Source: Sulfurospirillum arcachonense DSM 9755 (GTDB taxonomy: Bacteria > Campylobacterota > Campylobacteria > Campylobacterales > Sulfurospirillaceae). From it: a DNA stretch of 64,000 nt. Shown here piece after piece: positions 31,105 through 34,007 of this stretch. The first letter of the stretch is position 1, and each line of letters starts with the position of its first letter. The stretch lies in assembly GCF_000597725.1 (NCBI RefSeq), contig NZ_JFBL01000006.1:1-64000 (forward strand), read 5' to 3'. The notes under the pieces were generated by a model that worked only from the letters and a program-made list of their open reading frames with translations, was not told where the DNA came from and did no database searches. Made by a program: the position numbers and the translations under genes.

Positions 31105-31128
31105 ATATATCAAGATATATTGATATAT
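31105..31128. promoter_or_regulatory. ArsR operator
   Basis: ATATATCAA, six bases, TTGATATAT: a perfect 9-base inverted repeat matching the ATCAA-N6-TTGAT core known for ArsR/SmtB operators. It lies 36 bases upstream of arsR, where it would cover the promoter, and only five bases from the divergent sigma-54 site. Confidence 0.85.
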
Positions 31129-31131
31129 AAG

Positions 31132-31149
31132 TTGGAACTTTTCTTGCTT
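31132..31149 (+). promoter_or_regulatory. sigma-54 promoter of the J-domain gene
   Basis: TTGGAAC-TTTTC-TTGCTT: GG at 31134-31135 and GC at 31146-31147 with exactly ten bases between, a near-perfect match to the Campylobacter sigma-54 consensus. Expected start of transcription is near 31159, 23 bases ahead of the ATG at 31182. The sigma-54 gene rpoN itself lies just downstream of this gene. Confidence 0.82.
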
Positions 31150-31181
31150 ATGTATTATAAATTTTAGTTTTAGGAGTTTCT

Positions 31182-32012
31182 ATGCAAATCTCATTTTCTC
31201 ATGATATGCTTGCTATTACTATCGAAGACGATGCAAAAACGTTTTATCATATACAAAATATTATAGAAAAAAATTTCTCAAAACGTATTGGTAGAAAAAA
31301 TAAAACTATTGTATTTAAACAAGAGAATGAAAATGTACAAAGAAGATATTTTTTAAAACTTATTAGTAAAATATACAAAAGGAAAAATGAAATTCCAGAT
31401 AAAAATATCGCAAAACAAATTAAAACATCAATTGACAAATCTATAAAAATCACACACTTAAAATCAAATCAACTACAACAACAACTTAAAATTATAATGA
31501 AAATTGAAGACAACTATGCTATTAATTTTAATTTAGGCTCAAAAAATTCTATTTTAGTGAGTTATCTTAGAAACTATTTTAAAGACCATCTTGTAAAATA
31601 TAAACTAAAAACTGATACTGTTGTTATTTATCCAGTATCTGAAATAACTTCAAAACTATTAGAAAAGCTTCTTACTAGAAAAGAAATTATTGGGTGTTAT
31701 GTTGATTTTGTTTATGACATCGATGAATTTTTAACATATCAAAATATTTTAACTAAAAAAATGGAAAGAAAAAGAAAGTATAATGCTCTTTTTTCCCTAC
31801 TTGAAGAGTATTATGAAGTTCTTGAGTGTAAGGCTGAAGATAGCTTTGATACAATTAGAAAAAATTATCTTAAACTAGTAAAACAGTATCATCCAGATAC
31901 TATTTCATATACTGACCCTTCACTTGCCTCTCATTATAGTAATAAATTCCAAACCATACAAAATGCTTATGAGATGATAAAAATACATTATGAACATGAA
32001 AAAACTGCTTAG
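31182..32012 (+). CDS. J-domain protein with novel N-terminal region, sigma-54 dependent
   Basis: 276 residues. The C-terminal 70 residues are a J domain with HPD at 237-239 (YYEVLECKAED ... KQYHPDT), so it should recruit and stimulate DnaK. The first 200 residues match nothing I know; they are lysine-rich and mixed alpha/beta, with no signal peptide. AGGAG precedes the ATG. A strong sigma-54 promoter drives it, and in this phylum sigma-54 mainly controls flagellar rod and hook genes, so a chaperone role in flagellar assembly is a reasonable guess. It overlaps the rpoN end by four bases, convergently. Confidence 0.85.
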   Translation: MQISFSHDMLAITIEDDAKTFYHIQNIIEKNFSKRIGRKNKTIVFKQENENVQRRYFLKLISKIYKRKNEIPDKNIAKQIKTSIDKSIKITHLKSNQLQQQLKIIMKIEDNYAINFNLGSKNSILVSYLRNYFKDHLVKYKLKTDTVVIYPVSEITSKLLEKLLTRKEIIGCYVDFVYDIDEFLTYQNILTKKMERKRKYNALFSLLEEYYEVLECKAEDSFDTIRKNYLKLVKQYHPDTISYTDPSLASHYSNKFQTIQNAYEMIKIHYEHEKTA

Positions 32013-33280
32013 TAGGAACACATGAGGGCATAAAGCTTTTTTCTTTCACTTGAACCAGCTATATTAAACTCTTTCCTATATTTTGTAATAGTTCTACGTA
32101 CCATTTTTACAGCAAATTTTTGCTCAATTAAATTTAAAATCTTCACATCACTAAGTGGTTTTTTATGCTCTTCATTTTTAATAAGCTCACACATATACTC
32201 TTTTATTGCACTATTTGAAATATTTTCTTCTACAGCAGTTGCAAAAAACTGTTTTAGCGGAATTATACCCCGACTGCAAGAGAGATATTTACCTGAAATA
32301 GCCCGAGAAATTGTTGAAGGATTTCTTTGTAAATCATCGGCTAAATCTTTTAATTTCATAGGTTTAATTGCATGTCCAAAGAAAAAATCATATTGATACT
32401 CTACTATCATTAAACCTATTTTATAAAGTGTTGCTTTTCTCATTTCTAACGCGTCAACTAAATCTTTTGCATCCTTAATTTTTTCTGCAACAAAAGAGTG
32501 TCCTTCATCTAAGTTATCAGTCTCTATAATAATTTCTGGATAGTATGCATCGTTTAAGGCAACTTCAATTGTTCCTTTTGAATCATATACAAAAATATCA
32601 GGTATGACTTGTATTTCATCTTCTAAAAAGTCAATTGCAGGGGGATTTCTAAACTTTTTTATAACTTTTAGTGCTTCGTTAAATTGTTCTTCTTTATTAT
32701 AATTCTCTATCAATTCGAAATTTAGAATCAATTTTCTTACATACTTACATAAGTCTTCTTCTACTTCAGTATTATCAAGTTGAAATAAAAATGCTTCTTT
32801 AAAATCAATAGCTCCAATACCAACTGGCTCAAGATATGAAAATCTTTGCCTGATCTTTTCTACTTGCTCAGATTCAATATGCATTTTTTTCACTATTTCT
32901 AAAATAGAATTTTTATCAAAATAACCTTCGTGATTTATATTTTCTATAATTTCATAAGCTATATCTTGAGATTTTTTTGTGGGAAACAGTGGAGGATTTA
33001 TCTGCTCATATAAAGTTTGATATAAAGATTTTTTATTTATTGTTAAAGCTTCAATAGTGCTTGAGACACTATTTTTGCTAAGTTCAGAAAAAAAACCTTT
33101 TTTTGCAAATCTTTTATCTACTTTTTCATTTCCAGCACGAACCTGTATAAATGGATTTGCTTGAACAAAAGGTTCAATAGCTTCAGGCAACGAGTCCAAA
33201 TCAGATTGTAAAATTGGTAACCAACCACGAAGGGTTGATGAAAGTTTCTGCTTTTGACTCTGAGAAGCTCTTAATTTCAT
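32009..33280 (-). CDS. rpoN: RNA polymerase sigma-54 factor
   Basis: 423 residues from ATG 33280, where the protein reads MKLRASQSQKQKLSSTLRGW, the expected activator-interacting region I; TTG/GTG starts further upstream would run into lptB. The core-binding region and the helix-turn-helix (LADDLQRNPSTISRAISGKYL near residues 330-350) are present, and the RpoN box appears near the end as VRRTITKYRKEF, a small variation of ARRTVAKYRE. Three sigma-54 promoters are seen in this same window. It follows lptB by four bases. Confidence 0.95.
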   Translation of the reverse strand: MKLRASQSQKQKLSSTLRGWLPILQSDLDSLPEAIEPFVQANPFIQVRAGNEKVDKRFAKKGFFSELSKNSVSSTIEALTINKKSLYQTLYEQINPPLFPTKKSQDIAYEIIENINHEGYFDKNSILEIVKKMHIESEQVEKIRQRFSYLEPVGIGAIDFKEAFLFQLDNTEVEEDLCKYVRKLILNFELIENYNKEEQFNEALKVIKKFRNPPAIDFLEDEIQVIPDIFVYDSKGTIEVALNDAYYPEIIIETDNLDEGHSFVAEKIKDAKDLVDALEMRKATLYKIGLMIVEYQYDFFFGHAIKPMKLKDLADDLQRNPSTISRAISGKYLSCSRGIIPLKQFFATAVEENISNSAIKEYMCELIKNEEHKKPLSDVKILNLIEQKFAVKMVRRTITKYRKEFNIAGSSERKKLYALMCSY

Positions 33281-33284
33281 TATC

Positions 33285-34007
33285 TTAAAGCTTGAAATCT
33301 TCACCAAGATAATAAGTTCTTACTGATTTATCTTGAGCTACTTGTGCACTTGTACCACTTGCAAGAAGTGAACCATTTTTAATAACATATGCTCTATCAC
33401 ATATATCTAATGTCTCTCTTACATTATGATCTGTTATTAAAACTCCAATATTAAGTTTTATTAAATCTCTTACTATATTTTGTATATCAGCAACAGCAAT
33501 AGGATCAACACCAGCAAAAGGCTCATCTAGTAATAAAAATTTTGGCTGGATTGCAAGTGAACGTGCTATTTCACATCTACGTCTTTCTCCACCACTTAAA
33601 CTTAAACCTTTTCTTTGACGAATTGGCTCAATATTTAGAAGGTTTAAAAGCTCTTCAACCCTTCTTTCTCTATCTTCTTGTTTATCATAAATTATCTCAG
33701 CAGCTAGCATTAAATTTTCTTCAACACTTAGCTCTTTAAAGATACTTGATTCTTGAGGAAGATAACCAATACCAAGTTTTGAGCGTTTATGTAAAGGCAT
33801 ACTTGTTATTTTTTGGTTATCAAGATACACTTCACCTTTTGTAGGTTGAATAAGACCACATATCATATAAAAAGTAGTCGTTTTACCAGCACCATTAGGG
33901 CCAAGTAATCCTATTATTTCTCCACTCTTTACATGTAAAGATATATCTGTAATAATTGTCGTTTTTTTTATCGTTTTTACCAGTTTTTCTACTTTGAGTG
34001 TGTGCAT
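33285..34007 (-). CDS. lptB: LPS export ABC transporter ATP-binding protein LptB
   Basis: 240 residues. Walker A GPNGAGKTT near residue 36, Q-loop GYLPQESSIF (the PQE form typical of LptB), signature LSGGERRRCEIARSL, Walker B FLLLDEPFAGVDPIAV, and switch ITDHNVRETL. Drives LPS extraction with LptFG. As in many proteobacteria it is next to rpoN. It overlaps tsaE by 19 bases. Contains a perfect CTTTACATGTAAAG palindrome read as SLHVK. Confidence 0.95.
   Translation of the reverse strand: MHTLKVEKLVKTIKKTTIITDISLHVKSGEIIGLLGPNGAGKTTTFYMICGLIQPTKGEVYLDNQKITSMPLHKRSKLGIGYLPQESSIFKELSVEENLMLAAEIIYDKQEDRERRVEELLNLLNIEPIRQRKGLSLSGGERRRCEIARSLAIQPKFLLLDEPFAGVDPIAVADIQNIVRDLIKLNIGVLITDHNVRETLDICDRAYVIKNGSLLASGTSAQVAQDKSVRTYYLGEDFKL
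33927..33940. repeat. dispersed palindrome CTTTACATGTAAAG, inside lptB
   Basis: Perfect 14-base palindrome, read on the minus strand as Ser-Leu-His-Val-Lys. Confidence 0.85.

Follow-up and report, generated by a model that had tools for sequence, protein, structure and literature searches.

A candidate flagellar J-domain co-chaperone behind a putative sigma-54 promoter in Campylobacterota

We found that a gene for a protein with a C-terminal J domain (hereafter the J gene) lies behind a conserved, putative sigma-54 promoter in the window, the whole 64,000-nucleotide stretch of Sulfurospirillum arcachonense DNA analysed here, and we consider its product best explained as a specialised Hsp40-type co-chaperone of DnaK that belongs to the FlgR/sigma-54 (rod-hook) class and acts in flagellar assembly, a reading to which we give a probability of about 0.6. 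In Campylobacterota, the building of flagella passes through a checkpoint at which sigma-54 genes are turned on; if our reading is true, this checkpoint set would include a conserved gene that is not named in the flagellar census we searched and is hidden by a wrong enzyme name. Its product would then be the first flagellum-dedicated J protein known to us, and would offer a concrete handle on the involvement of Hsp70 in rod and hook building.

The sigma-54 site and its setting

The site, TTGGAACTTTTCTTGCTT (TTGGAAC-TTTTC-TTGCTT; 31132–31149, forward strand), has its GG at 31134–31135 and its GC at 31146–31147, and the 10 bases between them give the GG-N10-GC spacing of -24/-12 promoters. It stands 33 bases upstream of the J-gene start (ATG at 31182), with a ribosome-binding site (AGGAG, 31172–31176, forward strand) read from the sequence and, judging from the promoter spacing, a predicted transcription start near 31159. 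The genome also holds rpoN and an AAA+ activator, and control of the J gene by sigma-54 appears supported on these sequence grounds. The pattern TTGGNAYN5TTGCWW occurs twice in the window (vs. 0.12 expected), the second copy being inside a permease gene. Across the 2.66-Mb genome of this member of the Campylobacterales it has 15 matches (vs. 2 for the reversed pattern), and GGNAYN5TTGCTW has 49 (vs. 4 for the reversed pattern). Intergenic sites, read in context, precede flgB, flgE, flgH, flgI, a flgF-type rod gene and fliK (identified by NCBIfam or Pfam), as well as probable flgP and flaG genes (identified by eye only); the further intergenic sites belong to the J gene and a few orphans, and the other examined matches lie inside reading frames. 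Since the intergenic sites stand before flagellar genes, with rod, hook and ring genes behind them, the claim of the original prediction that sigma-54 mainly serves rod and hook genes holds in this genome.

The promoter that the original prediction had placed before the J gene is likewise backed by conservation in relatives as well as by this genome-wide enrichment. Within the organism's own GTDB family, no other stretch in front of the orthologues is as well conserved as this site, which lies ~50 bases from the start and is kept even where the upstream gene has changed. Across the wider sequence family, counting within 30–90 bp upstream of the start, we found the strict motif at distances of 39–86 bp in 60 of 85 members, from 11 of the 14 GTDB families sampled, against a control rate of 2/411 for the remaining genes of these loci. 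Family f16 has strict-motif matches at -136 (L093–L095, L097), far from the start and probably in an upstream coding frame, which were left out of the 60. The site is absent from f13, f16, f23, the C. jejuni/coli group and H. pylori-type genomes; in the C. jejuni/coli group the J gene sits directly behind bpt.

Downstream, the J gene overlaps by 4 bases the tail-to-tail rpoN gene (32009–33307, reverse strand), a neighbour that is not needed for regulation. The order bpt, J gene, rpoN (tail to tail), lptB is generally kept in the own GTDB family, whereas beyond it the neighbours vary widely, so that persistence of gene order, one of the checks proposed originally, was found close to home only. 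Linkage to rpoN was retained in the own family and in genus g15 of f11 and not elsewhere, and in distant members with widely differing neighbours the sigma-54 site usually persists. The argument that the rpoN neighbourhood supports a functional link is therefore not upheld: the linkage is local, the promoter persists without rpoN as a neighbour, and we rejected adjacency to rpoN as a general functional argument. No member of the family was found in a flagellar cluster, except for one locus (L055) with fliS/fliD-type neighbours.

On its upstream side the J gene is bordered by a divergent arsR and an arsenic operon, an insertion found only in genera g1 and g2 of the own GTDB family. A palindrome, ATATCAA-N6-TTGATAT (31107–31126), ends 5 bases before the sigma-54 site, and an exact copy also occurs in L002; given the divergent arsR gene, it is likely an ArsR-type operator. 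Binding of ArsR beside the sigma-54 promoter could interfere with the promoter where the arsenic operon has been inserted.

Three other genes deserve mention for their sigma-54-like intergenic sites. One such site lies ~109 bases upstream of a gene for a Csd3-type M23 peptidase (L117 211–1392, reverse strand; PF01551, Csd3_N), possibly a peptidoglycan hydrolase in the flagellar regulon. Directly behind two others are orphan genes, L044 1541–1870 (110 residues) and L129 1573–2628 (352 residues), whose proteins had no Pfam match over the cut-off.

A class C J protein with an unusual N-terminal part

The J gene (31182–32012, forward strand) encodes 276 residues, and the C-terminal J domain with an HPD motif at residues 237–239, as originally claimed, is well substantiated: PF00226 matches residues 209–266 (31806–31979; E 6.7e-11, 42.6 bits, over the cut-off of 27.8), the HPD motif (31890–31898) is intact, and Y229, H237, P238 and D239 do not vary among 24 sequences, the most distant at 19% identity. 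A J domain with this motif places the protein among the Hsp40 proteins. Its domain content makes it a class C (type III) J protein, and neither DnaJ/CbpA nor DjlA. Class A and B proteins (DnaJ, CbpA) combine an N-terminal J domain and a Gly/Phe region with zinc-finger or C-terminal substrate domains, whereas here the J domain is C-terminal and no other Pfam domain was found. The likeness to DjlA is confined to a J domain that is C-terminal after an unrelated N-terminal region in both (DjlA model NF006948: residues 195–269, E 7.6e-9, 35.5 bits vs. a cut-off of 162); DjlA differs by its TerB domain, for which the J protein has no Pfam match, having instead tandem alpha/beta modules and sigma-54/FlgR control.

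The N-terminal ~200 residues had been described as unlike anything known. This stands insofar as no Pfam domain matched residues 1–200 and no solved structure was found by Foldseek at E≤0.001 for the N-terminal part; it does not stand insofar as the protein appears to fall into an existing, misnamed NCBIfam family. An aIF1/SUI1-like fold was considered for the N-terminal part and dropped, the Foldseek matches being too weak for use. The structure prediction that had been suggested was run: AlphaFold2 modelled the whole protein with a pLDDT of 87.5 (pTM 0.41) and residues 1–181 alone, from 70 sequences, with a pLDDT of 93.5 (pTM 0.56). The predicted parts are two confidently modelled alpha/beta modules (module 1, residues 1–86, 31182–31439; module 2, residues 87–178, 31440–31715), a long connecting helix (helix 180–213; 31716–31805) and the J domain, all on the forward strand, with uncertain relative placement. 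By alignment, module 1 is retained in short paralogues of the protein and module 2 is absent from them.

The full-length family spans many GTDB families at ~20–30% identity. Named records show the J gene in C. jejuni and C. coli, and relatives also occur in H. pylori-type genomes; judging from gene order, the respective counterparts in C. jejuni and H. pylori are presumably Cj1034c and HP1336. NCBIfam NF006502, NF006503 and NF006504 (PRK08937.3) all give this J-domain family the name adenylosuccinate lyase. The protein resembles them as a full-length sequence family (NF006503: residues 1–274, E 1.8e-99, 332.7 bits vs. a cut-off of 338), whereas the name is contradicted, as a J domain with an intact HPD motif is present and Pfam shows no lyase domain even with hits of E up to 1 included; identity as a lyase was therefore rejected. 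The name is an annotation error that probably hides the J family in genome records.

FlgR, flagella and the distribution of the J gene

Nine genomes with the site (G276, G092, G104, G046, G050, G045, G052, G055 and G049) have one strong PF00158 match each, and this sole activator, with receiver and AAA+ domains and 56–68% identity to the S. arcachonense protein, we take to be FlgR from established knowledge of the phylum. Because the FlgR orthologue is the only sigma-54 activator there, we infer that the J gene in these nine genomes belongs to the flagellar checkpoint (FlgR/sigma-54) regulon. FlgR is thus the only activator available for the family, but not for S. arcachonense itself, whose second sigma-54 activator (L162, G000:C1:62000-65000; ~509 residues) shares 42% identity with FlgR across the AAA+ portion and is without the FlgR receiver region; the FlgR assignment in this genome is accordingly by orthology only.

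With the J gene called present at E≤1e-25, a full-length copy was found in 138 of the 299 Campylobacterales genomes profiled. FlhA was present in 131 of these carriers, RpoN in 131 and both in 128 (raw genome counts, ignoring phylogeny). Eight of the ten carriers lacking FlhA or RpoN are 57–82% complete genomes, the other two being G098 and G110 (f23). Joint absence was seen as well: ten FlhA-negative genomes within carrier families have no J gene (one f11 genus, one f17 genus, and scattered members of f15, f16 and f17). FlgR was found in 16/16 carrier genomes tested, and three genomes that keep RpoN and another activator (G214, G283, G298) are without FlhA, FlgR and the J gene. The gene is absent throughout f9, which is flagellate and has RpoN without FlgR, and throughout f19, which is flagellate without RpoN. 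These patterns, together with FlgR as sole activator in the nine genomes, sustain the flagellar link that had been proposed. The converse fails, however: the J gene is missing from f4, f7 and f22 even though these families are flagellate and possess both RpoN and FlgR, and within carrier families it is also missing from 20 genomes that have flagella and RpoN. Since whole flagellate families equipped with RpoN and FlgR thus do without the J gene, it is not indispensable for flagella.

Proposed role, alternatives and the short paralogue

We reasoned that activated FlgR would open the -24/-12 promoter of the J gene along with those of flgB, flgE, flgH, flgI and fliK, and that FlgR-dependent expression would fall at the hook-basal-body stage. 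The tandem alpha/beta modules, in which no known client-binding domain was recognised, may then take hold of flagellar clients in the cytoplasm, one or a few in number, which the C-terminal J domain would pass to DnaK via its HPD motif; clients could thereby be kept competent for export or assembly, or an export component could be remodelled, during construction of the hook-basal body. A structural or export client is preferred over a regulator client, which is the main rival. In that case the protein, as a partner of DnaK, would target one of the regulators in the flagellar cascade (RpoN, FlgR, FlhF/FlhG or the sigma-28/FlgM step) and, being produced during the sigma-54 stage, would provide feedback; FlgR/sigma-54 control, the tail-to-tail rpoN linkage in two families and the absence of the J gene where RpoN or FlgR is absent are all consistent with this rival, as is the fact that in E. 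coli DnaK and DnaJ act on the flagellar regulator FlhDC; however, we regard such a client as unlikely, since the rpoN linkage is local and families with RpoN and FlgR but without the J protein exist. Less probable again is that the protein works as a co-chaperone in general or stress functions, with sigma-54 simply used for its expression and with a client unconnected with flagella. The J gene does lie outside flagellar genes, is missing from some flagellate families and survives without the site in C. jejuni, H. pylori-type genomes, f13, f16 and f23, but its near-absence from complete non-flagellate genomes and its joint loss with flagella in f11, f16 and f17 argue against a general function, as do FlgR being the sole activator and the sigma-54 regulon being otherwise flagellar.

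Two further alternatives concern the promoter and the name. In AT-rich DNA, and with some relatives lacking the site, the -24/-12 match might be due to chance or be unused, with the J gene expressed from another promoter; the distance is nevertheless constant and conserved while the flanks diverge, the site is kept in unrelated contexts, and the control rate is 2/411, which makes this very improbable. That the protein is adenylosuccinate lyase or a related purine enzyme has in its favour the full-length NF006503 match just below its cut-off and is contradicted by the domain content (no Pfam lyase domain, a clear J domain, and predicted alpha/beta modules), and we give it next to no credence.

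A specialised co-chaperone with a structural or export client in flagellar assembly, the reading we prefer, would differ from known systems. Flagellum synthesis in E. coli requires DnaK-DnaJ-GrpE, and the likeness lies in the use of the Hsp70 machinery in flagellar biogenesis, which there involves the general DnaJ and here would involve a separate J protein in the flagellar regulon. We know of no dedicated flagellar chaperone (FliS, FlgN, FliT, FlgX) that is a J protein; these chaperones are alike in the proposed handling of clients and in expression with the flagellar cascade. FlgX serves as a chaperone for the stators in C. jejuni (PMC6686046). The term 'DnaJ' has no occurrence in a census of Campylobacterota flagellar components (PMC9321776), and the J gene is not named in the text of an RNA-seq paper on a C. 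jejuni rpoN mutant (PMC3353397), as expected from the loss of the site in C. jejuni. A text search of the open literature for a J domain together with flagella and RpoN returned nothing, nor did any open-access paper turn up that deals with the counterparts in C. jejuni or H. pylori, most subscription journals being outside the search.

A second J copy is present in several genomes, and most of these copies have a sigma-54 site to themselves. The one found in the own GTDB family is shortened to 145–177 residues, lies mostly beside cheW-like and response-regulator genes, and has the strict site 40–54 bases upstream in 10/10 intact copies. Alignment shows it to consist of module 1 plus the J domain with module 2 deleted, a loss that may point to different clients for the two modules. 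The short J protein of S. arcachonense (L145 1030–1467, G000:C3:22529-22966; 145 residues) has its own site 49 bases upstream, so this genome holds two J genes with sigma-54-type promoters. It is conceivable, though we advance it only tentatively, that Campylobacterota possess a flagellum-dedicated Hsp70 branch of one or two J proteins, which are induced through the checkpoint of FlgR and sigma-54 and use their alpha/beta modules to bring one particular client, from the hook-basal body or the export machinery, to DnaK. Genus g2 has full-length copies at loci like that of the short paralogue (L051 and L052), which likely represent its ancestral state, and a broken copy in G034 (L160 1507–1821) has an open J domain with module 1 out of a single frame.
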